Shown here: in pieces, positions 7,171 through 54,213 of the stretch
How positions within the stretch are numbered: the first letter of the stretch is position 1
Layout of the letters: each line of letters starts with the position of its first letter
NCBI GenBank assembly: GCA_002215645.1
Contig: NGFI01000004.1
Coordinates: forward strand, 553,244 to 617,243
Length of the DNA: 64,000 nt
Direction of reading: 5' to 3'
DNA from: Gemmatimonadetes bacterium 2013_60CM_65_52
Lineage (GTDB): Bacteria; Gemmatimonadota; Gemmatimonadetes; Gemmatimonadales; Gemmatimonadaceae
Notes under the pieces: model-generated
Seen by the model: only the letters and a program-made list of their open reading frames with translations
Told to the model about the DNA's origin: nothing
Database searches by the model: none
Program-made: the position numbers and the translations under genes

Positions 7171-7515
7171 TTGCCAGGATTCCTAGGGGTCGCAGGTCTC
7201 TGTCTGCTGTGTTGGGGACATACCCTGCGGGCTCAACGATTGGTCCGTGATGACCGATTGCCCTCACTCGGCGCGGGCCGCATCGAGTTATCACGACTCC
7301 AGCCCGATGCTGGCCCTGACGGAACCTGGCGTGGCGCGCGGCTCGGAGCACTCATAGGGGGAGCCATTGGGCTTACCGCCGGTATCATCGCGGATCTCAC
7401 GCAGAAGGGCCCGACAAGGATCTACGGGCTTTCACCCACCGTTGGTCTTCTCGGCGGAGCGTTGAGTGGCGCGGTCATCGGTGGTCTCATCGGACATTCG
7501 GGATCGCGGCCATGA
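7171..7515 (+). CDS. Small secreted or membrane glycine-zipper protein
   Basis: 114 residues from a TTG start nine bases after the GNAT stop. An N-terminal hydrophobic segment (LGVAGLCLLCWGHTLRAQ) looks like a signal peptide. Two glycine-rich hydrophobic stretches follow (GALIGGAIGLTAGII and GLLGGALSGAVIGGLIG), the pattern of glycine-zipper envelope proteins. No function can be assigned. Confidence 0.55.
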   Translation: MPGFLGVAGLCLLCWGHTLRAQRLVRDDRLPSLGAGRIELSRLQPDAGPDGTWRGARLGALIGGAIGLTAGIIADLTQKGPTRIYGLSPTVGLLGGALSGAVIGGLIGHSGSRP

Positions 7516-7673
7516 GCGTCAAATGGAGCCGTGTGACGTTTCGTCTGCCCACCGGTCCTTTTGGTGATGACGGACGAGCTCGGTGGAGCACGTCCGTCAC
7601 ACCGCACGGATCACTGGGCGATGCGGCTCGCGATTCGCTTCCCGCTGCACCCTCTCCATTCGGGAGCTGTCAC

Positions 7674-8063
7674 TTGAACACGCACAACCGCCGGGGCTTT
7701 ACGCTCATCGAACTTCTGATCGTCGTGGTCATCATCGGCATTCTGGCCGCGATCGCGATCCCGAAGTTCGCCAACACCAAGCAGAAGGCGTACATCGCCG
7801 CGATGAAGTCGGATCTCCGCAACCTCGTGACGGCCGAAGAGTCGTTCTTCGCCGACTCGACGAAGTACGTCACCTACGATACGACGCTGCTCAAGTTCAA
7901 GCCCTCGACGGGCGTGAACAACCCGACGATCGTGCCGGGCGCGGGCTACTGGTCGGCGACGGTGACGCACACGCAGATCGCGAGCTTCAGCTGCGGCATC
8001 GGCGTCAACACGACGAACCCGCTGGTCTCCACGGCAGGGGACGGCGAGCCAGTGTGTAAGTAG
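7674..8063 (+). CDS. Type IV pilin-like protein, PilA type
   Basis: Prepilin with a class III signal: short basic leader ending RRG, then FTLIELLIVVVIIGILAAIA, with Glu at +5 of the mature protein. The leader is cleaved and the Phe methylated by PilD in this family. The TTG start at 7674 is supported by GGGAG at 7662-7666, seven bases upstream; a longer frame reaches back to 7512 but adds a sequence unlike any leader. The C-terminal domain has two Cys (within FSCGIG and PVCK) that could form the usual D-loop disulfide. 129 residues. No pilus assembly genes are nearby. A strong hairpin follows the stop codon. Confidence 0.9.
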   Translation: MNTHNRRGFTLIELLIVVVIIGILAAIAIPKFANTKQKAYIAAMKSDLRNLVTAEESFFADSTKYVTYDTTLLKFKPSTGVNNPTIVPGAGYWSATVTHTQIASFSCGIGVNTTNPLVSTAGDGEPVCK

Positions 8064-8088
8064 CGCGGCCTGCTCGCATACCATCGCG

Positions 8089-8115
8089 AACGGCGCGCCG
8101 AGAGGCGCGCCGTTT
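8089..8115 (+). terminator. Terminator hairpin after the pilin gene
   Basis: Perfect 11-bp stem AACGGCGCGCC / GGCGCGCCGTT (8089-8099 with 8104-8114) and a four-base loop GAGA. The U-tract is short (TTT), so this is a GC-strong stem with a weak tail. It lies 26 bases after the pilin stop and before the methyltransferase start. Confidence 0.65.
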
Positions 8116-8132
8116 CCGTCTGACCAGCCACA

Positions 8133-9077
8133 ATGGGCCTCCTCGACTCGCTCAAATTCCGCGTTGGACGCTGGCGCGCCCTGCGTGCGGCAGAGCGTGG
8201 CCTCGCGCCTCCAACGCCCAGGGAGCGCGCGCGGATTGACGCACTGCACGCCGACTTTGCCGAGCTGCCCGTTGCTCCGGTTGATGGACTTGACCCGAAC
8301 GAGGCCGACTGGAACGGCGCCATGAACCGGCTCCGGGAGCTTGGCATGCGCGCCGATCCGCGAGCGTTTCAGCGATGGGACGTCATCGTCGCGCGCATGG
8401 CACACATGGAGTCGCCGGCCACCGCTCCTGAACTGGCGGCGCTCCAGGCTGACGCCGCGTGGGAGACGCGGTGGCGCGACGCGATTCGCGAAGTCGGCGT
8501 CGGCAGGCCCAGCCAATACGCGCCTCATCCGTCCAGCAGCGAAGCGCTGATTCAGACGGTGTACCATGTGCGCGAGCTCGAGGAACTCTCGGCGCGTCGC
8601 GTGGACGAATGGGATGTTGTGGTCGAGTTCGGCGGTGGCTTCGGTGGCCTGTGCCGCGTGATGCACGCACTCGGTTTCCGTGGACGGTATCTGATCTTCG
8701 ATTTGCCGGCGTTCACGCTGTTGCAACGATACTATCTCGATCAGGCCGGCGTTCTCGGCGGCGGAAACGTGCGAGTGACCAGCGACCTCCGCGATCTCGA
8801 TGCATTTGTGAACGGTATCAAGCCGAACGAGCGCGCCGTGTTCTGGGCCACGTGGTCGCTCAGCGAGACGCCAATGACACTGCGTGAGCGCATCAAGCCG
8901 CTCGTGCAGCGGATCGGCAATTATTGCATCGCGTATCAGGGACGGTACGGGGGCGTAGACAACGTTCGCTACTTCACCGACCATTGGATTTCAGGCGAGT
9001 CGCGAATCCGGCGCATCGAACACCGGCCGGACGACTACTACCTTGCGGGCCGTGTGGCGCCTGTCACGGAGGCGTGA
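8133..9077 (+). CDS. Putative sugar O-methyltransferase
   Basis: 314 residues. The SAM-binding glycine loop EFGGGFGGL lies at about 165-173 and is followed by the acidic strand LIFDLPAF, a layout typical of the 'putative sugar O-methyltransferase' family found in surface-polysaccharide clusters. The substrate cannot be read from sequence. Position right after a pilin gene raises the possibility of modifying a surface glycan or pilin glycan, but the terminator between them argues against a shared transcript. Confidence 0.75.
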   Translation: MGLLDSLKFRVGRWRALRAAERGLAPPTPRERARIDALHADFAELPVAPVDGLDPNEADWNGAMNRLRELGMRADPRAFQRWDVIVARMAHMESPATAPELAALQADAAWETRWRDAIREVGVGRPSQYAPHPSSSEALIQTVYHVRELEELSARRVDEWDVVVEFGGGFGGLCRVMHALGFRGRYLIFDLPAFTLLQRYYLDQAGVLGGGNVRVTSDLRDLDAFVNGIKPNERAVFWATWSLSETPMTLRERIKPLVQRIGNYCIAYQGRYGGVDNVRYFTDHWISGESRIRRIEHRPDDYYLAGRVAPVTEA

Positions 9078-9113
9078 TGATCGCAGTCCTTCGCGATGCG
9101 GAAGCCGAGTCCG

Positions 9114-9275
9114 TCAGCGCTCCGGCCGGGAACTTCCGCGCGCGACGATCCTATATATCAGCAGCGATACACCGACGGTGAGCAGCAGGTGTACCCAGCC
9201 GGGCCCCTCGATCACCAGGGCGGCAATGGCCCAGACGACAAGCAGCGCGATTGCGCCGACTATTCCAAGATCCAT
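9114..9275 (-). CDS. Small two-helix membrane protein
   Basis: 53 residues starting MDLGIVGAIALLVVWAIAAL, with two hydrophobic segments and a basic tail (GSSRPER). It resembles the very short Lmo0937/DUF5670-type membrane proteins. The frame extends upstream to 9356, but the ATG at 9275 is preceded by GAGGTGACG, a good ribosome-binding site at suitable spacing, so the short form is preferred. It stands alone on the minus strand. Confidence 0.6.
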   Translation of the reverse strand: MDLGIVGAIALLVVWAIAALVIEGPGWVHLLLTVGVSLLIYRIVARGSSRPER

Positions 9276-9582
9276 CGTCACCTCGCGAATTGACCCGTCA
9301 CGTGACGAGCCGTAGATTTGCGGCGTCAATCTGACGGCACCGGGGCGGAGAGCCACGTTTTTGAGCCGATAAGTCCTTCGAGTGGGTTCGACAATCTATA
9401 CTGACGGCATGCCCCCAGTGCGGGGGAAGCCGGAAGGTGTGGTGAGGGCCTCATAATTTCGACAGGGCTTCAATAAACCCTCTCCGTTCTTTCTGCGGGC
9501 TTCGTTCGGCTCACCAGCCGGGCGGAGCTCGTGGTCGTTCTGGCCCCTGCCGTTCCGGGAATCGCTCCGTCATACTGCATGA
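9276..9582. other. Gene-free stretch with a possible structured leader
   Basis: 307 bases between divergent genes, presumably containing both promoters. A TATACT box sits at 9397-9402 on the plus strand without a convincing -35. A small perfect hairpin CCCCC-AGTGC-GGGGG follows at about 9412-9426, then a G-rich segment and a pyrimidine-rich stretch. This could be a structured 5' leader of the pterin operon, but I find no match to a riboswitch or small RNA consensus that I know. Confidence 0.3.
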
Positions 9583-10005
9583 ATGGCGGATTCCCCACAG
9601 ATCACCGTGACGCGGCGGCTTCTCTTCAACGCCGCGCATCGCGTCCACAATCCGGCGCTCTCGGACGAAGAGAATCAGCGGCTATTCGGCAAGTGCAACA
9701 ACCCGAACTGGCACGGGCACAACTATACGCTCGACGTCTCCGTGCGGGGCACGGTGGACCCGCGAACCGGCTACGTCATCGACCTGAGCGTCCTGAAGCG
9801 AATCGTACAGGATCGCGTGGTCGAGCGAGTGGATCACAGGAACTTCAATCTCGACGTGGACTTCATGAAGGGTGTGATCCCAACGTCAGAGAACATCGTC
9901 GTCGGCATGTGGCGCGAGCTCGCGCCGGCCGTCCAGCCCGGCACCCTCGTGAAGCTGGTGCTGTGGGAAACGTCGAACAACTACGTCGAGTATACAGGTG
10001 AGTAA
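9583..10005 (+). CDS. ptpS: 6-pyruvoyl-tetrahydropterin synthase (PTPS-I type)
   Basis: 140 residues. Converts 7,8-dihydroneopterin triphosphate to 6-pyruvoyl-tetrahydropterin in the family. Zinc ligands His19, His44 and His46 and catalytic Cys38 are spaced as C-x5-H-G-H, the arrangement of animal PTPS; the queuosine enzyme QueD normally has C-x3-H-x-H. Further conserved residues are Asp84-His85 (VDHRNFNL), the PTSEN motif and Glu129 (WETSNN). The stop codon region overlaps the GTP cyclohydrolase start by eight bases, so the two steps of pterin synthesis are coupled. Confidence 0.88.
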
Positions 10006-10627
10006 ACCCGAATCGTCGCGCGCTTCCGCGCCGTCCGTCCTTCCGCTGCACGCCGACGACGCCACGTCGACGGCATACGCGTCCATCGTCCGGGAGCAGC
10101 TCCGGCTTCTCGGTGAAGATCCCGAGCGCGAGGGCCTGGTCCGCACGCCGCATCGCGTGGCGGAGGCCATGGCCTTTCTCACGCGAGGCTACTCTCAGTC
10201 CCTCGAGGACGTCGTGGGTGACGCCCTGTTCGAGGAAGAGCACGAGAACATGGTGATGGTGCGCGACATCGAGCTCTACTCGTTGTGCGAGCACCACATG
10301 CTGCCCTTCTTCGGTAAGGCGCATGTCGCTTACATCCCGAACCGGAAGTTGGTCGGCCTCTCCAAGCTCCCGCGGATCGTGGACATGTTCGCCCGCCGTC
10401 TGCAGGTGCAGGAGCGTCTGACCGAACAGGTAGCGGCCGCCGTCGAAGACGTGCTCCAGCCACTGGGCGTCGGCGTCGTCATCGAGGCGTTTCACATGTG
10501 CATGATGATGCGCGGCGTGGAAAAGCAGAATTCGCGGACCATCACCTCCGCGTTGCGCGGTGTGTTCCGCGAGGATGGCAAGACCCGAGACGAATTTCTG
10601 CGACTGGCGTACAGCGCGCACCGATAG
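9998..10627 (+). CDS. folE: GTP cyclohydrolase I
   Basis: 209 residues from a GTG start. Hydrolyses GTP to 7,8-dihydroneopterin triphosphate, the substrate of the PTPS enzyme encoded just upstream. Zinc ligands Cys97 and His100 are in [11 protein letters not shown] and the third, Cys168, in HMCMMMRGV. The substrate loop [23 protein letters not shown] is intact. It overlaps ptpS and is two bases from the reductase gene, so the three form one operon. Confidence 0.95.
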
Positions 10628-10629
10628 CG

Positions 10630-11352
10630 ATGGGTGCCACGTCGCTGGCCGGGCGCAGTGCGCTTGTCACGGGCGCGTCGCGCGGTATCGGGGCGGCGGT
10701 GGCGCGCCGGCTGGCGGCCGATGGCGTGCGGGTCGCGTTGATGGCGCGCGACAAGGCGGCGCTGACGTCGCTTGCTCATGAGCTGGGGCACGGCGCCGTT
10801 GGTCTCGCGTGCGACGTAAGAGACACGGACACGCTGACGCGCGCAATCGAGCAGCTTCCCGATCTAATGGGCGACATGCCCGACATCGTGGTCAACAATG
10901 CGGGCGCCTTTTTTCTTGCGCCGGCACAGGAAACCTCCGTTGCGGCTTTCGGTGAGACGCTCGCCGTGAATCTCACGGCGCCGTTCGCCGTCATCCGCAC
11001 ACTCGCGCCGGCCATGTCCCGTCGCGGGAATGGACACATCGTCACCATTGGGTCCGTCGCGGATCGTCACATCCTTGCGGGCAACGCAGCCTATGCGTCA
11101 TCGAAGCACGGATTGCGCGCGTTGCACGAAGTGCTTCGCGCCGAGTTGCGCGGCACCGGCGTGCGTGTGAGCCTCGTGTCGCCCGGGCCGGTGGACACGC
11201 CGCTATGGGATGCGGTGGTTACCGACTCCAAGCCGGACTCCACGTCGCGCTCGAAGATGTTGTCGCCTGCCGCGGTGGCCGACGCCGTGCATTACGTGCT
11301 CACAGCGCCGTGGGAGCTGAACGTGGACGAGCTGCGCGTGTCGCGCACCTGA
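10630..11352 (+). CDS. Short-chain dehydrogenase/reductase, possible sepiapterin reductase
   Basis: 240 residues, classical SDR. Cofactor motif TGASRGIG near residue 15, NNAG, catalytic Ser in IGSVAD and Tyr-x3-Lys in AAYASSKHG, then SPGPVDTP. By sequence alone this could be a FabG-like 3-oxoacyl reductase. Position immediately after PTPS and GTP cyclohydrolase (start two bases after the folE stop) makes the final reduction of 6-pyruvoyl-tetrahydropterin to tetrahydrobiopterin the more likely job. That role is inferred from context. Confidence 0.82.
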   Translation: MGATSLAGRSALVTGASRGIGAAVARRLAADGVRVALMARDKAALTSLAHELGHGAVGLACDVRDTDTLTRAIEQLPDLMGDMPDIVVNNAGAFFLAPAQETSVAAFGETLAVNLTAPFAVIRTLAPAMSRRGNGHIVTIGSVADRHILAGNAAYASSKHGLRALHEVLRAELRGTGVRVSLVSPGPVDTPLWDAVVTDSKPDSTSRSKMLSPAAVADAVHYVLTAPWELNVDELRVSRT

Positions 11353-11360
11353 TCGCGTCG

Positions 11361-12026
11361 ATGTTCATCGAGCTGGTCGATGCGTTGCGATGCCCGAACG
11401 CGCACGAGGAGAGCTGGATGGTGGCGTCGAGCGATCGCATGGAGGCGCGTCACATCGTGACCGGCACCGTCGGCTGCCCGGTGTGCTCAGCCGTATTTCC
11501 CATTCGCGAGGGTGTCGTGGATTTCCGCCGCGCCTCGGCGCCTCCGGTGGCACATCGTGCAGCGGGCAGCGCCGACGAGGCCATGCGTCTCGCTGCATTG
11601 CTCGATCTCACCGACGCGCAGGGCTTCGCCGTGCTGCTCGGCGAATGGGGCAATCAGGCGCACGAGCTGCACGGAATTGTGGACACACCGCTGGTGCTCG
11701 TTGACCCTCCGGAGGGCATCACCGGGGCGCCCGGCATTTCCGTGATTCGCGGCGACGGCACCATTCCATTGGCAGAGCGAGCCGCCCGGGCCGTTGCCGT
11801 CGACGCAGCGGACAGCGCGCGCGTGGCCTCCGCGGTGCGCGTGGCGCGCGCGGGCGGGCGAGTCATCGCCCCAGCCACTGCGTCGTTGCCTGATGACGTT
11901 ACCGAGCTCGCGAGGGACGCACGCATCTGGCTCGGTGAACGTCACGCCGCGACGTCGGAGATGGTGTCCCTCCATGTGCGTCGCGGCAGCGCACCAGGCG
12001 CCGAATCACCACGCCCGTTCCCCTAG
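11361..12026 (+). CDS. Protein with N-terminal Trm112-like zinc ribbon
   Basis: 221 residues from ATG 11361, eight bases after the reductase stop. The N-terminal 60 residues have Cys-containing turns (LRCPNAH and GCPVCSAVFPIREGVVDF) that match Trm112-like zinc ribbons. The remainder looks like a Rossmann-type domain with weak methyltransferase features (LARDARIW) but no SAM glycine motif. Function unknown. It ends convergently with, and overlaps by four bases, the acyl-CoA synthetase gene. Confidence 0.6.
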   Translation: MFIELVDALRCPNAHEESWMVASSDRMEARHIVTGTVGCPVCSAVFPIREGVVDFRRASAPPVAHRAAGSADEAMRLAALLDLTDAQGFAVLLGEWGNQAHELHGIVDTPLVLVDPPEGITGAPGISVIRGDGTIPLAERAARAVAVDAADSARVASAVRVARAGGRVIAPATASLPDDVTELARDARIWLGERHAATSEMVSLHVRRGSAPGAESPRPFP

Positions 12027-13864
12027 CCGACCGTTACTTCCTCGTGCTCGCCGGCGTAGAGTGAATCGATGACGGACTTGTACGTCTTGTCGATGACGCG
12101 CCGCTTCACCTTCAGCGTGGGCGTGAGCTCGCCTCGTTCAATGGAGAAATCGTGTTCCAGCAGCGCGATCTTCTTCGGCGTCTCGAACCGCGCGAGCCCT
12201 TGGAGCTTGCCGAGGACTTCCTTTTCCATCTTCGCCTGAATCACCGGCATCTCGAGAAGCTGTGTTCGCTGCGTCCACACGAGGTTCTTGATCTTTGCGT
12301 ACTTCTCGAGCTGCTCCCAGTTGGGCACCACCAGCACCGCGGGGAACTTCCGTTTGTCGCCGATCACCACGGCTTGACTGACGTACTTGTTCGTCTTGAT
12401 GGCGTTCTCGATGGGCTGCGGCGCGACCTTCTTGCCGCCTGCGGTGACAATGATGTCCTTCTTGCGATCGGTGATCGAGAGAAAGTCATCGTGCAGCTCG
12501 CCGATGTCGCCCGTATGGAACCAACGGTCGTCATCGATGGCGTCGCGCGTGGCGTCGGGTTTGTTGTAGTAACCCTTCATGACGTGCGGTCCCCGGGTGA
12601 GGACCTCGCCGTCCGGTGCGATCGTGACCTCCACGCCCGGTACCGGCTTCCCCACGGTACCGATGCGGAACGCCTTCGGCGTGTTGACCGCGATCACGGG
12701 GGACGTCTCGGTGAGCCCGTACCCTTCGAGAATCACCAGCCCGGCGGCATAGAAGAACTTGTTGATCTCGGGTGACAAGGGCGCGCCGCCGGAGACGAAG
12801 TAGCGGAGCTGGCCGCCCGTTCGCGCCTTGAGCTTGCTGAACACGAGCTTCTGCGCGATGCGGTACTTCAGTGCGAGCACCCCCGCCGGCGTACCGCCCG
12901 CAAGCGTCACGTCCGCCCACTGCTCGGCCACCTTTCGCGCCCAGAAAAAGATGCGGCTCTTGATCGCGCCGCCCGCCAGCGCGTTCTCCAGAACGCGCGC
13001 ATACATCTTCTCGTAGAGGCGCGGCACCGAGAGCACGAGCGTCGGACGGACCGTCTGCAAATCGACCGGCACAGTGTCCATGGACTCCGCATATGCGATC
13101 GAGCACCCGACGTGGAACATGAGATAATGGCCGGCCATCCGCTCGAAGATGTGTGAAAGCGGCAGGAAGCTGAGACCGGTGTCGTTGCCGGCGAATGGAA
13201 CCTGAACCGCGCTGGCCATGACGTTCGAGTAGATGTTGTCGTGCGTGAGCATCACGCCTTTCGGCTCACCGGTGGTGCCGGACGTGTAGATCAACGTTGC
13301 GACGTCATCGGGCCGGATGGCGTCAGCCGCTGCGCGGTAGGCGGCACGATGCGTTTCGTCATCCACGCCGGTACCCAGCGACTCCAGCTCCGCGAGCGTA
13401 TGCTCCGCGCCCGGATGTGATGCCTCGGCAAACGTGATGACGTACTTGAGCGCCGGCACGATCTTGCGGATCTGCGTGATCTTCGACGCCTGCGCGGCAT
13501 CGCTCACGAATATCGCGACCGCACCCGAATCCTTCAGGATATACGCTGCTTGTTCGGGAGGCAGGTTAGGGTACAGCGGCACGTCGGTGACGCCCGATGT
13601 GATGCATGCGTAGTCGGCGATGGCCCATTCCGGGCGGTTCTCCGAGAAGATGGCGACGTGATCGCCGGCTCGTATTCCCAGTTCTCGCATGCCCATGGCG
13701 ACACGGCGCACGCGATCGGCGAGCGCGCGGCTCGAGATCGGCTGATACGCGCTATTTACCTTGTGCTGTAGCGCGTTGGGCTTGTCGTGCGTTGCGACGG
13801 CGTCGAGAAAGAGCCTCGCGAGAGTTCCGGGCTCTGAATTGCGCGGGCCACCGGACGTGATCAT
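12023..13864 (-). CDS. fadD: Long-chain acyl-CoA synthetase (AMP-forming)
   Basis: 613 residues. Activates fatty acids with ATP and CoA. ANL-superfamily motifs in order: P-loop YTSGTTGEPKGVM, the GYGLTETSPVI substrate/adenylate motif, WFHTGDIGELHDD and TDRKKDIIVTAGGKKVAP hinge region. The catalytic lysine region near the C-terminus (ERGELTPTLKVKRRVI) is typical of FadD15-like long-chain enzymes. Monocistronic; the gene upstream on the minus strand begins 88 bases away. Confidence 0.92.
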   Translation of the reverse strand: MITSGGPRNSEPGTLARLFLDAVATHDKPNALQHKVNSAYQPISSRALADRVRRVAMGMRELGIRAGDHVAIFSENRPEWAIADYACITSGVTDVPLYPNLPPEQAAYILKDSGAVAIFVSDAAQASKITQIRKIVPALKYVITFAEASHPGAEHTLAELESLGTGVDDETHRAAYRAAADAIRPDDVATLIYTSGTTGEPKGVMLTHDNIYSNVMASAVQVPFAGNDTGLSFLPLSHIFERMAGHYLMFHVGCSIAYAESMDTVPVDLQTVRPTLVLSVPRLYEKMYARVLENALAGGAIKSRIFFWARKVAEQWADVTLAGGTPAGVLALKYRIAQKLVFSKLKARTGGQLRYFVSGGAPLSPEINKFFYAAGLVILEGYGLTETSPVIAVNTPKAFRIGTVGKPVPGVEVTIAPDGEVLTRGPHVMKGYYNKPDATRDAIDDDRWFHTGDIGELHDDFLSITDRKKDIIVTAGGKKVAPQPIENAIKTNKYVSQAVVIGDKRKFPAVLVVPNWEQLEKYAKIKNLVWTQRTQLLEMPVIQAKMEKEVLGKLQGLARFETPKKIALLEHDFSIERGELTPTLKVKRRVIDKTYKSVIDSLYAGEHEEVTVG

Positions 13865-46936: not shown

Positions 46937-47542
46937 CTATCGCTCCACAGCCTCCAGCCGCCGCTTCGCGATCCCGATCGGCACGATCGTCACTGCCACG
47001 CACAACACCGCCGCAAGGCCGAATCCAACGATCATCTCCGTGGGATCGGTCCGCGTATTGTAGAGGCGCGCCGAGAGATATCCGTACACCGGGCGCGCCT
47101 CGAGCGTGATCACACCCGCGATGAGGCCGACGGACGCGATCATGAACAGCAGCCCGCCGAACGACGTCGGAATCTGCGCCGCATTCTCCGTCTCGAACTG
47201 CGGAAACAGCGTCCCGAACCCGAGCGCCAACCCACACAGCGCCAGCGTCATCATGGTGATCGTCATGACGCTCACCGCGAACATGAAGTCGCTCACCTGC
47301 AGGAGCGCGTTCGTCACGCCGACGATCCCCAGGGCGAGCACGAGCAACGGAAGCGTCCCCACCCAGAACTTCGCCCACAGCAGATCCTTCACCGGCATCG
47401 GGCTCGACCTCAGGAGCCACAGCGTCCGGCCTTCGAGCGAGACACTCGGAAAGATGAATCGTGCCGCGATCGAGGCGAGCACGAACCCGGCAAGCACCAG
47501 GTTCAGGAACGGAATCACGTTGACGAGGGAGAATGCTCCCAA
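46937..47542 (-). pseudogene. Detached 3' copy of the ABC-2 permease gene
   Basis: 201 codons, in frame to the last codon, that correspond to the C-terminal 200 residues of the complete permease at 51762-53462 (shared motifs GFVLASIAARF, FPSVSLEGRTLWLL, GTLFPQFETENAAQ, EARPVYGYLSA). It has no 5' part, no ribosome-binding site and only a TTG to start. It is as GC-rich as the host genes, whereas the same region of the complete gene is AT-richer. I infer it is the original permease end, displaced by an insertion. Confidence 0.8.
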
Positions 47543-47748
47543 AACCCTTTTCCTCCCTTCTTGCTGAGGTCCGGTCTGCGAGAAGGGCAGGCCACCTTCG
47601 CGACCTGTGCCACGTCGAGCTGACCCTCATGCGGCGGGTCTGCATTGGGAGCCCGTCATTGGACAAGCAGTCGGAAGGCGAAAACCTTACATTTCGGATT
47701 CAACTGCCGAGCAGGTTGCTCGATAGCAGCACTGGCTTAAGGGCGCCG

Positions 47749-48699
47749 ATGGATTTACTGACAAACGCAATCGAATCGATTCAGGTGGGCGTGGAGGACT
47801 ACCAAGTGGGCAGCCGTCCCCGCCTAATCTCCGCCGTGCGTAACGTCTACGCTGGAATCCTGTTGCTCTACAAAGAAGCCCTGTTACGTCATTCTCCCGA
47901 GGGGAGCGGCGAAGTCCTGATAAAAGCCAAAATCGCCACGGTAATGGGCTCGACAGGTGAGCTGAAGTTTGTCGGGCACGGCAAGAAGACCGTAGACACG
48001 CAGCAGATTCGAGAACGATTCAAGGACTTGGGAATCGTGACAGACTGGAGTGCATTGAACGCAATCGCTAGCGTGCGTAACGATGTCGAGCATTACTACG
48101 CTGACATCACGAAGGACAGTGTACGCAGTGCAATTGCATCGGCGTTCTTGATCATTCGGACGTTTATCGTCACCGAACTTGAGGAAGACCCGCCGAAGCT
48201 GGTCGGGAGCGCAACCTGGCAGTTGATGTTGGCGGAAAACGAGCTGTACGCCGAAGAGCGCCGGCTATGCAACGAGGCGTTTTCAGTCGTTGAATGGACA
48301 TCAGAAACCCTACGTCAGGGCATTCCGAAACTCAGGTGCTCCAAGTGCGGCTCAGATCTGATGTGCCCGTCGGACGATTGGGCCGATCTTGCCGACGCCA
48401 CACTGGCCTGCCGGGCATGCGGCACCGAGGTCGAGGCCCATCACTTCGTGCCGAAAGCGTTGGATCAAGAACTGGAATGGGAGCGGTATTTGGCGGCTTC
48501 GGACGGAGCCGACGAACCCGTTGGCGAGTGTCCGAACTGCGGCGTCGAGTCTTACGTGTTCGCCGAGGGACAGTGCGCGCTTTGCGGTGAGTCGGCTCAG
48601 ACTGATTGTGCGCGCTGCGGACAGACCATTCCGGCGAGTGAGTTCGGATCTTCTCCGGTTTGCGGTTACTGCGACTACCTGGGGTCGAAGGACGACTGA
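47749..48699 (+). CDS. HEPN-motif protein with three C-terminal zinc ribbons
   Basis: 316 residues from ATG 47749 (AAGGG upstream). The helical N-terminal half ends in VRNDVEHYY, an R-x4-H (Arg110, His115) motif of HEPN ribonucleases. The C-terminal third has six CxxC-type pairs: Cys197/200, 221/224, 261/264, 276/279, 287/290 and 305/308, i.e. three zinc ribbons that could bind nucleic acid or a protein. The frame reaches upstream to 47533 but the added part has no HEPN features. Defence association is inferred from motif and neighbours. Confidence 0.7.
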   Translation: MDLLTNAIESIQVGVEDYQVGSRPRLISAVRNVYAGILLLYKEALLRHSPEGSGEVLIKAKIATVMGSTGELKFVGHGKKTVDTQQIRERFKDLGIVTDWSALNAIASVRNDVEHYYADITKDSVRSAIASAFLIIRTFIVTELEEDPPKLVGSATWQLMLAENELYAEERRLCNEAFSVVEWTSETLRQGIPKLRCSKCGSDLMCPSDDWADLADATLACRACGTEVEAHHFVPKALDQELEWERYLAASDGADEPVGECPNCGVESYVFAEGQCALCGESAQTDCARCGQTIPASEFGSSPVCGYCDYLGSKDD

Positions 48700-48707
48700 A
48701 ATCGCAG

Positions 48708-48745
48708 CTCCGACGTCCACCTCCGACGTCCACTCCGACGTCCAC
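48708..48745 (+). repeat. Three tandem 12-13 base repeats
   Basis: CTCCGACGTCCAC occurs three times head to tail (48708-48720, 48721-48733, 48733-48745, the last two sharing one base). It lies in the gap between the HEPN and AIPR genes, immediately after the HEPN stop. It could bind a regulator or be slippage; it is not a CRISPR. Confidence 0.6.
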
Positions 48746-48965
48746 CGTGTTGACGGACTCGTCAGAAGTCATTAGGATGAACTTGCCTCAGTCAGCACTC
48801 TCGGCGCGAATGCGTTGGAGCCTGCGCTGTAGGTCGTAGCGGCGGCGGCCATTGTGGCTCGCTTGCCAGGAACAGTCGGTTCGGGGACCGGCGCACCGCG
48901 CGCCTGTCCCTGATCCCGATCAACAGGCGGCAGCCATTTGGGGTCTGCTTGCCAACGGAGATTCT

Positions 48966-50147
48966 ATGCACCAGCTTCGCTTTCCGGCGCAGCAGTTTCG
49001 CGCCATGCCCGCACCGAGTGGACGAGCTCGAGTGGGGCTTTTTTATTGCCCGGCATCGGCGATCCCATCCGAGCTGATGGACTGGCGGGATGTGAACCCG
49101 CGCGAGGTAAACCCGCGCAGCGCCACGTACAAGGCGATCGTCAGCACGCTCATGGAGGAGCCCGAGCGCTTCCACGAGCGGAATCGCGGCATCACCGTGG
49201 TGGCCAAGGACGTCACGTTCGATGAGAAGCGGCAGGAGGTTGTGATCAGCCTCGCGGACAAGACACAGCACGGTGTGGTTGACGGCTCGCACACGCTACA
49301 CGCGATCTTGGAAGGTCAGAAACTCATGTCAGACGAGCCCTGGCCGGCGCATGTCTTCATCATTGCCAAGACCGGCATCGATCCGGAGCAGATCGCCGAA
49401 GTCGCCGGTGGCCTGAACACGAGCCAGCAGGTCGATCTCAAGAGTCTCGAGAACCTGCGCGAGCACTTCAAGGGATTGCAGGATGCGATCAAAGGTGAGC
49501 CGTACCACGACCAGATCGCGTACAAGATGAACGAGGTAAAGCCGGTAGACGTCCGCGAAATCCTATACTACCTCGCTGTGTTTGACGCGGAGACGTACAA
49601 CGGTAACCGCCATCCCGTCGCGCTCTTTGGACGTAAAGAGGGAATCGTCCGTGAGTTCGCACGCCAGGCCGAGGAGCCGTCCAGAACGGACCCATTCCCG
49701 ATCCTAATCTCCAAGGCGCCGGACATCCTTCGACTCCGTGATCTGATCGAGAAGGCAGCGTTAGCACAGCAGAACGTCGGTCGCTACAAGGCGAGCAAGA
49801 AGACGCGCATCCGCAGCGAGTCGAATCGTGAGAATACGTTGTACTTCCTCAACGAGAAAACGAACGGGAAGATTCCCCTCGGCTGGATCATGCCGATGCT
49901 CGCCGCGTTCCGTGCCAACGTGGTATGGAACAAGCCGAAGGGGACGTTTACCTGGATCGTCCCAATTGAGGAGTTGGTCGACATGTCGATCGAACGCCTC
50001 GTCGGCGGTATCCTTGAGGTTCACGAGCAAGAGAACAGCCGCCCAGAATTTGTAGGTCGTAATTCTATCGCGTGGCGCATGAGCTACACCACGGTCTCGC
50101 AGTCCATTCTCGAGTGGCAGCTCAAGCGCGAGCGCAAGCGATCGTAG
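48966..50147 (+). CDS. AIPR-family protein (abortive infection phage resistance)
   Basis: 393 residues from ATG 48966 with GGAG upstream. The AIPR pattern is visible in FHERNRGITVVAKDV (residues 69-83) and VVDGSHTLHAI (104-114), the equivalent of the family's N-G-x-Q-T loop; the rest is alpha/beta. AIPR proteins were named from an abortive-infection protein and recur in phage-defence islands, but their activity is not settled. The AIPR assignment is mine from motif pattern, without a search. Confidence 0.7.
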   Translation: MHQLRFPAQQFRAMPAPSGRARVGLFYCPASAIPSELMDWRDVNPREVNPRSATYKAIVSTLMEEPERFHERNRGITVVAKDVTFDEKRQEVVISLADKTQHGVVDGSHTLHAILEGQKLMSDEPWPAHVFIIAKTGIDPEQIAEVAGGLNTSQQVDLKSLENLREHFKGLQDAIKGEPYHDQIAYKMNEVKPVDVREILYYLAVFDAETYNGNRHPVALFGRKEGIVREFARQAEEPSRTDPFPILISKAPDILRLRDLIEKAALAQQNVGRYKASKKTRIRSESNRENTLYFLNEKTNGKIPLGWIMPMLAAFRANVVWNKPKGTFTWIVPIEELVDMSIERLVGGILEVHEQENSRPEFVGRNSIAWRMSYTTVSQSILEWQLKRERKRS

Positions 50148-50158
50148 TGTCAGCCCTG

Positions 50159-50189
50159 GCTGGCGTGGCTCTCACGGGGCCACGCCAGC
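50159..50189 (+). terminator. Hairpin after the AIPR gene
   Basis: Eleven-base stem GCTGGCGTGGC / GCCACGCCAGC (50159-50169, 50179-50189) with a nine-base loop, 12 bases beyond the AIPR stop. There is no T-tract, so it may act as a terminator or an mRNA 3'-end stabiliser. Confidence 0.45.
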
Positions 50190-50331
50190 GCTCCAGTGCG
50201 CAGCGTCGACAAATGCGCCCGAATATAGACGAGCGCTGCGGCCAAACACTTCCGGGGGGCGGATGTTCTCCCGTTGGCCATTACCCAATTCGTGAAATGT
50301 ATTCTGCTCAGGCATCTGCCCGATCCCTCCC

Positions 50332-51120
50332 TTGATTGACAACAACCTGACGGATACCGCTTCAGACGAAGTTACGGAGATCGCGGCAATAAGCGCCTTC
50401 GTGGGGACGATGCGGAGCGTAACAGTTCCGCTAGTGGGAAACGCGCAAACTATGCCCCGAAAGTCAAAATTGGGTTCGGGCGTCCTCCTTCAGCGCGGAC
50501 AGGATTTTCTGTTGCTTACCGTGCAACACCTGTTCAGGAGCGATGCTCAGTGGAGTTTCGAAACTGGCATAACTCACAATCGAGAATCGCTAAACATATC
50601 AATTCGCGATCTTCGCGCGCTCAAGAAACGCGACCTGAAATCTGGGGCGATGCAAGAGATTGATCTCGCGTGGGGCTGGCTCCGCCGAACGGACATGGTC
50701 GAAGGGCTGCAGTCGTTGCCAGACCCGAAACCGAAAATGATTCTTCCTGTGTATGACGGTCCGCTCGATACGGCGGTGATGGAAGACGAGCAGTACGGCT
50801 ATGCCGCGAACAACCGAATAAAATGGAATCCGCAAAGTCGTGAACTAATGCGAGAGCCGTCTTTCGAGGTAGGAATGACGCTCCGTAGCCGTCACGAAAG
50901 CGATGGTACGGTCGAGTTTGAACTCGCGCGAGATCATCAAGGCAACGAGTACTACAATGGTGCATCGGGTGCACCAATCGCAGATAGAAGCGGAAGGATT
51001 GTAGCACTTCTCGTCGGTTCGGCGCCGGGTAACGTCATTATCGGCGTCGAGCTGAGTCAATTCAGCGCACTCTTTGACCTGGATCCACCGCAGTCGCCAC
51101 CTTCCGCTAGCGCCGCCTGA
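50332..51120 (+). CDS. Trypsin-like serine protease
   Basis: 262 residues from a TTG start; no ribosome-binding site is obvious and a GTG at 50400 is an alternative. The chymotrypsin-fold triad is readable: His66 in LLTVQHLF, Asp111 in EIDLAW and Ser212 in GASGAP, so the protease should be active. The segment LGSGVLLQRGQDFLLL is the first beta-barrel strand pair. No signal peptide, so intracellular. It lies in the same orientation as the HEPN and AIPR genes. Its 3' end converges on the XRE gene. Confidence 0.78.
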   Translation: MIDNNLTDTASDEVTEIAAISAFVGTMRSVTVPLVGNAQTMPRKSKLGSGVLLQRGQDFLLLTVQHLFRSDAQWSFETGITHNRESLNISIRDLRALKKRDLKSGAMQEIDLAWGWLRRTDMVEGLQSLPDPKPKMILPVYDGPLDTAVMEDEQYGYAANNRIKWNPQSRELMREPSFEVGMTLRSRHESDGTVEFELARDHQGNEYYNGASGAPIADRSGRIVALLVGSAPGNVIIGVELSQFSALFDLDPPQSPPSASAA

Positions 51121-51188
51121 GTCTTGCGATGGACGTCGATGGTTCTTAGCTGAACGGCCGTGTGCATGCGGAACCGTTGGCGATTGAA

Positions 51189-51380
51189 CTACTCGCCAAT
51201 GCTTACGAAGTACGCCAGCGGCTTGTTGTAGATACGCGCAAATTGAAGCGCCTCGATAATGTCAACACGCCGCTCTCCAGATTCGCACTTCGAGACAAAC
51301 GACTGTGGCTTTCTGAGCGCAGCCGCAGCTTCTGTCTGCGTCAGTCCAGACTGTCGGCGCGCCTTCCTAAGACGCTGCAA
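51189..51380 (-). CDS. XRE-type helix-turn-helix protein
   Basis: 63 residues. The Cro/C1 helix-turn-helix is clear: LRKARRQSGLTQTEAAAALRKPQSFVSKCESGERRVDIIEALQFAR. The only listed start is a TTG (51380); the frame continues upstream to a stop at 51411-51413 through AQYIAENISF with no ATG or GTG, so a rare start is possible. The palindrome at 51464-51479 lies just upstream and is its likely operator. Confidence 0.75.
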   Translation of the reverse strand: MQRLRKARRQSGLTQTEAAAALRKPQSFVSKCESGERRVDIIEALQFARIYNKPLAYFVSIGE

Positions 51381-51463
51381 GAAGCTGATATTCTCTGCTA
51401 TGTATTGAGCTCAAGGTTCGGCGCGCCAATAGGTAGGGCAGGACCTTGCGCCGGGAGATCAAG

Positions 51464-51479
51464 TATCCCAAATGGGATA
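51464..51479. promoter_or_regulatory. Palindromic operator TATCCC-N4-GGGATA
   Basis: Perfect inverted repeat TATCCC AAAT GGGATA between the divergent XRE gene (51380) and the small ORF starting at 51498. XRE repressors of toxin-antitoxin and phage-type systems, such as HipB (TATCC-N8-GGATA), bind closely similar sites, so autoregulation by the XRE protein is likely. Spacing here is six bases between TATCC and GGATA. Confidence 0.65.
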
Positions 51480-51497
51480 TCATTTTCTCAATAGCAC

Positions 51498-51710
51498 ATG
51501 CGCAAGCTTAGAGATGGCTGTGACAAGAGCAGGGAGCGCGTGAGCGAGCTACTCTTTTCGCCTGAAGTACTCGCGGCCGCAGAGGCCGTGCGCCTTGAGC
51601 AGAAGGATGAGTATCAGTCCACCAGGCGTGAGCTTCTATACAAGCAGCCGTTGTTCGAAGCGCTTCTGCGCGAAGCGGCTGAATTGAGTCGAAAGCGCGA
51701 GGGCAGATAG
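51498..51710 (+). CDS. Small helical protein of unknown function
   Basis: 70 residues, highly charged, one long helix (VSELLFSPEVLAAAEAVRLEQ, ALLREAAELSRKREGR). It begins 18 bases after the operator, possibly on a leaderless transcript since no ribosome-binding site is seen. A toxin, antitoxin or accessory role is possible, but I recognise no family. Confidence 0.4.
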   Translation: MRKLRDGCDKSRERVSELLFSPEVLAAAEAVRLEQKDEYQSTRRELLYKQPLFEALLREAAELSRKREGR

Positions 51711-51748
51711 GGTTGCACAGCGCCGGATGGCGTTCAATTGAGCAACCC
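51710..51748. terminator. Hairpin between the small ORF and the permease 3' end
   Basis: Arms GGGTTGC (51710-51716) and GCAACCC (51742-51748) around a 25-base loop that can itself fold (CGCC-GGAT-GGCG). It sits between convergent genes and close to the island's right side, so it may be a bidirectional terminator. A 25-base loop makes this tentative. Confidence 0.35.
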
Positions 51749-51761
51749 GCTGCGCGCGCTA

Positions 51762-53462
51762 TCAGCGCTCGACTTCCTCAAGGCGCCGCCGAGCGATGGA
51801 AATGGGAATGACAGTGGTAACGATGCACAACAGCGCTGCCAAACTGAAGCCAACAACCATATCCGTCATGTCTGTCGCAGTTCCGTAGAATTGCGCAGAG
51901 AGATACCCGTACACGGGTCGTGCTTCGAGTATTAACACTCCGGCGATAAGGGAAATCGCCGCGATCATGTACAAGAGTCCCCCGAATGATGTCGGAATTT
52001 GCGCAGCGTTTTCCGTCTCGAACTGCGGAAATAGTGTTCCGAATCCCAACGCGAGACCACAGAGTGCCAGCGTCATCAGCGCAATTGTCATGATCGAAAC
52101 CGCGAACATGAAATCGCTCACCTGAAGGAGCACGTTCGTCACGCCGATAATCCCGAGCGCCAAGATCAATAGGGGTAGAGTCCCAACCCAATACTTGGCC
52201 CAAAGCAAGTCAGGCACCGGCATAGGGCTGGACTTGAGCAGCCAAAGGGTCCGTCCCTCAAGGGAAACGCTCGGGAAAACGAACCGCGCGGCGATCGATG
52301 CGAGCACGAAGCCCGCCAATAACATGTTGGCGAACGGGACCGTATTTCGGAGAAAGAACGTGACGCCCTCGCCGCGCAGCGGCAGATACTTGATGTTGAA
52401 CACGTACACGATGACGAGCACGGCGAGCAGGATGAGCTGCGACCACTGCGTCGTGTCCCGAAAGAAGAGGCGAAGCTCCTTGAGGATCAGCTCCCGGCGA
52501 AGCACGCCCAATGGCGCCAACAACCGGTAGGCCGCGCGCCCCATCCGCGAGCTCCTCGCCCAGCGCTGCGCGCTCTCCTGCGCCTTGCTGAATCCATCCA
52601 GGTACAGCGCGCGATGCACGAGCGCACCGAGGACGAACGCGGCCGCGGCCGTGCTCCAGAGCAGGTAGATCGGCAGATAGTCCGGCCGGTTGTCGAGCCA
52701 GCCGAGCACCGCGCGCTGCACCCACTCGCTTGGCATGAACGGCGACGTCGGCGTCCGCAGCACCGTCACGAAGTCCACGAGCGAACGAAATCCTTCAGGG
52801 CGGGCGAGACGCTCGGGCCGCACGACGCGAAAGAGCAACACGATGCCGCCCGCGGCCAGCACCGCGATGACGCTCAGAATGTCGCGCGTGCGTCGCGCCG
52901 GAAACACGTTCACGAGGATGAGCGTGATCGCGCTGCCGATGACCGCCGGCACCAGGAGAAACGGCAGAAACACGGTGGCGACGAGCACGGGAAACGCGAA
53001 TCCGCCGTGATATGCCACGCCGAACGCGGCAAACATCGGCACCGACATGAGCACCACCATCCAGCTCGATGCCACCGCCGTCTCGAGCAGTTTCGCGGCG
53101 TACAGCGTCAGCCAATCCACTGGCCCGGCGACGAGCAGGTCCAGATCGCGCGCGAGAAAGAAGCTCGACAGCGCGGTGATGATGTTCGAGAGCAGCAGGA
53201 TCGAGAAAAACCCGATGAGAATGACGCCAAGCAGCTTGCCCGCCAGAAATGGACCGAGGTCGGGCACGTTGCGGAAATACACGAGCAACCGGTAGAGCAC
53301 GGCGTAGATGAATGCCCAGAAGCCGAAACCGATGATGCCCAGAATCGTGAAACGCGCCCCGCGTCCACGCTGACCGGCCAGCGTGCGCGCGCGCGCCGTG
53401 AGCCACTTCGGTAGCAGGACGAAACCGAGCGACGGATCGGGACGCGACTCGGCGTCAGGCAT
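51762..53462 (-). CDS. ABC-2 type permease, chimeric 3' end
   Basis: 566 residues from ATG 53462, overlapping the ATPase stop by eight bases. About a dozen membrane segments. Residues from the RNTVPFANMLLAGF segment to the C-terminus correspond to the detached copy at 46937-47542, but with synonymous changes throughout and lower GC; bases before about 52345 differ in composition from bases after. The upstream part matches neighbouring genes. The protein is intact. It works with the adjacent ATPase; substrate unknown. Confidence 0.85.
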   Translation of the reverse strand: MPDAESRPDPSLGFVLLPKWLTARARTLAGQRGRGARFTILGIIGFGFWAFIYAVLYRLLVYFRNVPDLGPFLAGKLLGVILIGFFSILLLSNIITALSSFFLARDLDLLVAGPVDWLTLYAAKLLETAVASSWMVVLMSVPMFAAFGVAYHGGFAFPVLVATVFLPFLLVPAVIGSAITLILVNVFPARRTRDILSVIAVLAAGGIVLLFRVVRPERLARPEGFRSLVDFVTVLRTPTSPFMPSEWVQRAVLGWLDNRPDYLPIYLLWSTAAAAFVLGALVHRALYLDGFSKAQESAQRWARSSRMGRAAYRLLAPLGVLRRELILKELRLFFRDTTQWSQLILLAVLVIVYVFNIKYLPLRGEGVTFFLRNTVPFANMLLAGFVLASIAARFVFPSVSLEGRTLWLLKSSPMPVPDLLWAKYWVGTLPLLILALGIIGVTNVLLQVSDFMFAVSIMTIALMTLALCGLALGFGTLFPQFETENAAQIPTSFGGLLYMIAAISLIAGVLILEARPVYGYLSAQFYGTATDMTDMVVGFSLAALLCIVTTVIPISIARRRLEEVER

Positions 53463-54213
53463 CCAGAACCTCGACCAGCTCGCGCGCGGCGTTCTCGCCA
53501 GTGAGTCGCAGGAAGATCTGCTCGAGTCCCTCCGTGCCGTGCTCTGCGGTTTCGCGAAGCTCCGGGATCGTGCCGGCCGCGCGAATGCGCCCCTTCGCAA
53601 TGATGGCGACGCGATCGCACAGACTCTCCGCCACCTCGAGCGTATGCGTGGACATCATGATCGTGTGACCGCGCCGCGTGTACTCGCGGAAAAGGTCCTT
53701 CAGAATGCGGGCCGCCTTCGGATCCAGACCGACCATGGGCTCGTCCACCACGATCACTTCGGGTCGGTGCACGAAGGCACTCGAGATGATGAGCTTCTGC
53801 CGCATCCCGTGGCTGTAGCTCTCCACCAGCTCGTCGCGCCAATCCTCGAGGTCGAACAGAGCCATCAATTCCCGCGCGCGATGCTCCACCTCGTCGCCCT
53901 GCTGCTCGTACAGCCCCGCTACGAACCGGAGAAACTCGGCGCCGGTGAGCTTCTCATATATGAATGGCCGGTCCGGAATGAATCCGAGCCGCATCTTTGC
54001 TCCGATCGGATCGGTGGCCAGGTCCACGCCCGCAATGGAGATGCTCCCGGCCGTTGGCTTGAGGATGCCCGCGATCATTCGCAGCGTCGTCGTCTTGCCG
54101 GCGCCGTTCGGCCCGAGGAAGCCGAACAGCTGGCCGCGCGGCACCTCGAGGTCGATGGAGTCGACCGCCGTGAACGTGCCGTATCGCTTGGTGAGGCTCC
54201 GCAGGTTGATCAT
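53455..54213 (-). CDS. ABC transporter ATP-binding protein
   Basis: 252 residues from ATG 54213 (MINLRSLTKRYGTF); the frame runs further upstream without ABC features. Walker A GPNGAGKTTT, Q-loop region, signature SYSHGMRQK (a variant of LSGGQ common in ABC-2 exporters), Walker B VIVVDEP and switch STHTLE are all visible. Powers the ABC-2 permease encoded just downstream. It follows the transglutaminase gene by five bases. Confidence 0.93.
   Translation of the reverse strand: MINLRSLTKRYGTFTAVDSIDLEVPRGQLFGFLGPNGAGKTTTLRMIAGILKPTAGSISIAGVDLATDPIGAKMRLGFIPDRPFIYEKLTGAEFLRFVAGLYEQQGDEVEHRARELMALFDLEDWRDELVESYSHGMRQKLIISSAFVHRPEVIVVDEPMVGLDPKAARILKDLFREYTRRGHTIMMSTHTLEVAESLCDRVAIIAKGRIRAAGTIPELRETAEHGTEGLEQIFLRLTGENAARELVEVLDA

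Follow-up and report, generated by a model that had tools for sequence, protein, structure and literature searches.

Analysis of this locus raised the question of whether three consecutive genes on one strand, encoding a HEPN-zinc-ribbon protein, an AIPR-family protein and a candidate trypsin-like protease, work together as a single and previously undescribed defence system. A preliminary description of the locus had proposed such a system as a candidate. It had also set beforehand what would speak against it, namely a lack of conserved co-occurrence of the genes beyond this genome, or loss of the HEPN or protease active site across homologues. The window, by which we mean the whole stretch of DNA that was analysed, comprises 64,000 nucleotides of contig NGFI01000004.1 of Gemmatimonadetes bacterium 2013_60CM_65_52.

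Gene content of the locus

The three genes, and the two small frames that follow them, were annotated as listed below.

47749–48699, + strand: HEPN-zinc-ribbon protein of the PDC-S64 family, 316 aa; predicted RNase (R110, E114, H115) with C-terminal zinc ribbons
48966–50147, + strand: AIPR-family protein, short form, 393 aa, with the motifs VVDGSHT and NTSQQV
50332–51120, + strand: candidate trypsin-like serine protease, 262 aa from a TTG start, with H66, D111 and S212; an orphan in the collections searched
51189–51380, − strand: small XRE-type helix-turn-helix protein, 63 aa, at the right end of the island and divergent to the 70-aa frame
51498–51710, + strand: small open frame, 70 aa, at the right end of the island, which may not be a gene

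The three intact same-strand frames of the preliminary description were all present, and the gap lengths that it gave were exact: 266 bases between the HEPN and AIPR genes (48700–48965) and 184 bases between the AIPR and protease genes (50148–50331). When the island sequence was shuffled 200 times, the longest open frame averaged 170 codons and reached a maximum of 294, compared with 316 (HEPN), 393 (AIPR) and 262 (protease) codons for the real frames. The HEPN and AIPR frames are not products of chance, because both have database matches. The protease frame is shorter than the longest frame obtained by shuffling and thus, by length alone, is not beyond chance. GC content at third codon positions was 0.675 for the HEPN gene, 0.774 for the AIPR gene and 0.578 for the protease gene. 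Scans for promoters and terminators returned counts that were not clearly above those of shuffled sequences.

An island inserted in an ABC-permease gene

The preliminary description had placed the genes on an island, and they do lie on a mobile, GC-poor insert within a permease gene. The insert and the parts of the permease gene were delimited as follows.

46937–47536, − strand: displaced native 3′ end of the ABC permease gene, 199 aa; 79–82% nucleotide identity to intact genes of the genus
47537–52346 (right edge approximate), no strand: inserted island of ~4.8 kb; GC content ~0.57, against 0.65 outside; breakpoint in common with genome G254
51762–52346, − strand: 3′ end of the intact permease gene, a replacement of foreign origin; 71–72% nucleotide identity to the genus, GC content 0.552
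52347–53600, − strand: 5′ part of the same intact gene, native; 77–79% nucleotide identity to the genus, GC content 0.654

Comparison with the intact genes of seven congeneric genomes identified the permease fragment to the left of the island as a C-terminal piece. The intact permease gene to the right of the island proved to be a chimera, with 1254 native nucleotides at its 5′ end and 585 divergent nucleotides at its 3′ end. From this split in identity and GC content we infer that insertion of the island near codon 414 of the gene displaced the native 3′ end and put a foreign one in its place, leaving the permease gene intact.

In G254, which belongs to the same genus, the end of the displaced permease fragment coincides in the alignment, give or take a few bases, with that of the fragment described here. 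Of 148 family genomes, only the one studied here and G254 had a displaced fragment that was broken at this point. A wider insertion hotspot was rejected on the basis of this count (2/148), and a third candidate for the same breakpoint, G305, was rejected because it is cut by the end of its contig. The island at this breakpoint in G254 (locus L029, contig C226, positions 7275–12655) has other cargo, including ParA-like and TIR-effector-like proteins. Neither island showed an integrase. The island is a case of a gene-repairing insertion in a transporter gene, and two species of the genus have such an insertion at one and the same breakpoint.

Co-occurrence of the three genes

We gathered 98 loci around relatives of the HEPN gene (genomes, plasmids and viral contigs; 1.53 Mb in total) and 14 loci around relatives of the AIPR gene. 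Profile searches recovered the expected gene in all loci, which served as positive controls. The same searches detected an AIPR gene in none of the 98 HEPN loci and a HEPN gene in none of the 14 AIPR loci, with the reservation that the loci had been found by conserved peptide patterns, so that very remote arrangements may have escaped detection. The protease was found in neither the 98 HEPN loci nor the 14 AIPR loci.

The wider collections gave the same picture. The search of 249 phylum genomes gave one further genome with a clear HEPN relative and two further genomes with clear AIPR relatives; it also gave a weak and partial AIPR match in one more genome and a spurious HEPN match in G142, confined to the zinc ribbon. 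No other genome of the 249 carried two of the three genes. HEPN relatives were found in 13 plasmid records and AIPR relatives in 47 (40 of them listed). No plasmid record among those listed held both, and the protease was found in none. Of 50 genomes checked, one (G310) holds both a HEPN-zinc gene and a clear AIPR gene of the short form, the latter outside the 10-kb flanks of the former.

The claim of an undescribed three-gene system thus failed on these counts: neither the HEPN loci nor the AIPR loci held either of the other genes, and conserved co-occurrence beyond this genome was looked for and not found. We have struck this false three-gene system from the list of candidates. As one combined reading, we consider it likely that the island was acquired horizontally and inserted in the 3′ part of the ABC-permease gene, that its three genes are independent cargo and not one system, and that the HEPN-zinc protein stands alone as a new member of PDC-S64, a candidate family already catalogued.

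The trio could still be a real but rare defence system, in which, for example, the protease would free a HEPN or AIPR toxin upon sensing infection. The shared strand and short gaps, the active-site motifs in the HEPN protein and the protease, and the recurrence of each domain type in defence would all be in keeping with this idea, and co-directional genes would allow a joint function in this strain alone. We nevertheless regard it as highly improbable. No pair of the genes was kept in any of the gathered loci, the 66%-identical AIPR relatives and the 51%-identical HEPN relative occur without the other two genes, codon composition is unlike among the three genes, and gaps of 184–266 bases do not suggest translational coupling. 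Of the defence links proposed earlier, those of the individual genes were retained, as the family of the HEPN protein is listed as a defence candidate and AIPR proteins are defence-linked, but the link of the trio as one system was not.

The AIPR protein and the protease candidate

The assignment of the second protein to the AIPR family was confirmed by a match to PF10592 (E = 1.2e-21, 78.1 bits vs a curated cut-off of 25). Its start codon was set at ATG 48966, as in its two 66%-identical relatives. The possibility that it is MzaE of the MZA system was rejected, given a score of 14.8 bits vs an equivalog cut-off of 1050. A DndB/ParB-like fold was suspected for the protein, but a structure model based on five sequences was poor (pLDDT 66) and had no meaningful match in the PDB. 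AIPR/AbiU1 proteins have been linked to restriction operons (PMC2292703, PMC3506569). Short-form AIPR genes were found on small plasmids with only a helix-turn-helix gene and, in G046, in a defence-like neighbourhood. On Firmicutes plasmids (L112–L116), a small divergent helix-turn-helix gene was located directly 5′ of the short AIPR gene in five of five cases, a possible two-gene module. AIPR genes were also located within phage contigs, near terminase or HNH genes (L139, L140); the family is carried by phages too.

The identification of the third protein as a trypsin-like protease stood in part. The frame is intact and has its candidate catalytic residues in the order H66, D111 (in IDLAW) and S212 (in GASGAP, matching GxSGxP), but the match to the Trypsin_2 profile (E = 0.0016, 19.6 bits) is below the curated cut-off of 27.6. 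The order of the motifs and the weak profile match hint at a trypsin-like identity. No relatives of this protein were found in plasmids, phages, viral contigs or the 249 phylum genomes, and none in the 50 HEPN-bearing genomes, where the search had no positive control. As it has no homologues in these collections, its absence elsewhere is uninformative alone. We regard both the AIPR gene and the protease gene as separate cargo, with functions that are less certain.

Identity and conservation of the HEPN-zinc protein

The start of the HEPN gene was placed at 47749, where a 51%-identical relative, when aligned, begins as well. The protein had been described as a HEPN protein of the R-x4-H type with three zinc ribbons, and both features were found. 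The sequence RNDVEH at residues 110–115 corresponds to the Rx4-6H motif of the HEPN superfamily with a polar residue after R. Six CxxC pairs (197/200, 221/224, 261/264, 276/279, 287/290 and 305/308) make up three zinc-ribbon-like units, which weakly resemble those of ribosomal protein eL37 and of transcription factors.

The same protein had been taken to be part of something undescribed; it is, however, an already catalogued candidate, PADLOC PDC-S64. It gave a full-length match to the model PDLC05058 (E = 2.3e-47; P0001 residues 74–358 on profile positions 9–288 of 305), and six of its plasmid relatives match the same PADLOC models. PDCs are candidates derived from a guilt-by-embedding approach, and most of them are without experimental validation (PMC12988326). 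Our literature search returned no paper naming PDC-S64 and no experimental work on proteins of this family.

Alignment of 56 sequences showed R110, E114 and H115 to be invariant, as were eight cysteines of the zinc ribbons; N111 and three further cysteines were nearly so. All 84 relatives with an open frame that reaches across the motif site kept the pattern R[NT]xxEH (two fragments were left out), and the full R-N-x-x-E-H motif persisted in relatives down to 23–28% identity. Loss of the HEPN active site across homologues was thus looked for and not observed.

Predicted structure

The AlphaFold model of the HEPN-zinc protein had a mean pLDDT of 94.8. It predicts an all-helical HEPN fold in which helix 3 (residues 100–116) ends in the RNDVEH motif, with a beta insert between helices 2 and 3. 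The same motif position and beta insert have been described for the superfamily in a survey of HEPN proteins (PMC3710099). Among the PDB fold matches listed, a probability of at least 0.6 was reached only by the HEPN-fold structures 8xdj, 8xeh and 1jog; the matches to HEPN proteins had a TM-score of ~0.5 (by target length) and poor E-values (0.8–0.95).

Distribution of HEPN-zinc relatives

Relatives of the HEPN-zinc gene were found on plasmids, in prophages and in genomes beside defence genes. The most frequent neighbour family, which corresponds to phage baseplate genes, was detected in 11 of 92 HEPN loci; as even the commonest neighbour reached only this number, the gene has no fixed partner. 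In the prophage contigs L124, L126, L129, L131–L134 and L136, HEPN-zinc genes adjoin baseplate and tail-fibre genes, at what appears to be a recurrent cargo spot.

Elsewhere, the relatives adjoin type I restriction genes, IetA and IetS, MADS components and Shedu. Their surroundings on plasmids include AbiE, TIR, Shedu, an S8 peptidase with an ATPase, and DUF499/DUF1156 genes. IetA/IetS genes (ATPase and subtilase) were repeatedly located near HEPN-zinc genes (L084, L090, L012, L065 and L067). These named cases, taken without a background rate, give the impression that defence genes are enriched around HEPN-zinc genes.

Proposed mechanism of the HEPN-zinc protein

By analogy with characterized HEPN proteins, the HEPN-zinc protein most likely acts alone, as an RNase of abortive infection. 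Its HEPN dimer would stay inactive until infection, when the C-terminal zinc ribbons would bind either a trigger or an RNA or ribosome target. R110, N111, E114 and H115, in an active site that is probably composite and formed from two subunits, would then cleave host or phage RNA, and this cleavage would arrest the growth of the infected cell and so provide phage resistance. We propose metal-independent cleavage because the biochemistry of HEPN RNases is established (PMC3710099). Given that there is no antitoxin partner, the protein would have to control itself, most obviously through its zinc-ribbon tail, which may sense infection or guide the nuclease to RNA or the ribosome. No published mechanism was found for such a zinc-ribbon/HEPN sensor-effector fusion.

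Two other functions were weighed against this proposal. A regulatory or RNA-binding HEPN protein that is not an RNase effector would agree with the loss of activity in some HEPN families (PMC3710099) and with the weak resemblance of the zinc ribbons to eL37 and transcription factors, but retention of the full R-N-x-x-E-H motif among 84 relatives, down to the lowest identities, is the pattern of a catalytic site, and we judge this alternative unlikely. The closest solved folds, 8xdj and 8xeh, are HEPN-MNT toxins, which would fit the toxin half of a HEPN-MNT-type toxin–antitoxin pair; this reading is disfavoured and carries very little weight, as the island has no MNT nucleotidyltransferase and no constant partner was found in the 92 loci.

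For the family as a whole, we give an even chance to the broader proposal that PDC-S64 proteins form a widespread immune family whose members each act as a single protein, with zinc ribbons that sense phage infection and then activate the HEPN RNase, and that hosts and prophages alike carry them against competing phages. A catalogued but undescribed family gains a testable function, with its catalytic residues, zinc ribbons as the likely sensor and a well-predicted fold made explicit.

Comparison with known systems

The AIPR protein of the window matches the AIPR/AbiU1 family (PF10592). It differs from its five relatives on Firmicutes plasmids, which have a divergent helix-turn-helix gene upstream, whereas it has none. 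The protease candidate shows a weak and fragmentary likeness to LmuA of Lamassu; this identity was rejected, as the match was only partial (E = 0.0013 over 44 residues) and the island genes do not include LmuB.

PADLOC lists PDC-S64 as a single-gene putative defence candidate without a domain description, to which the HEPN motif, zinc ribbons, fold and solitude of the gene are added here. A distant PDC-S64 member (L016) matches the HEPN families DUF3644 and HEC-08, both at 1e-16 to 1e-18, and this ties PDC-S64 to families already known by name as HEPN proteins, although the window protein itself matches neither family at E ≤ 1. With RloC, PrrC and RNase L (KEN domain), the window protein has in common an R-polar-x3-H motif at the end of helix 3 and, by analogy, probably metal-independent RNA cleavage. 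It differs from them in having zinc ribbons in place of an ATPase or a 2-5A sensor.
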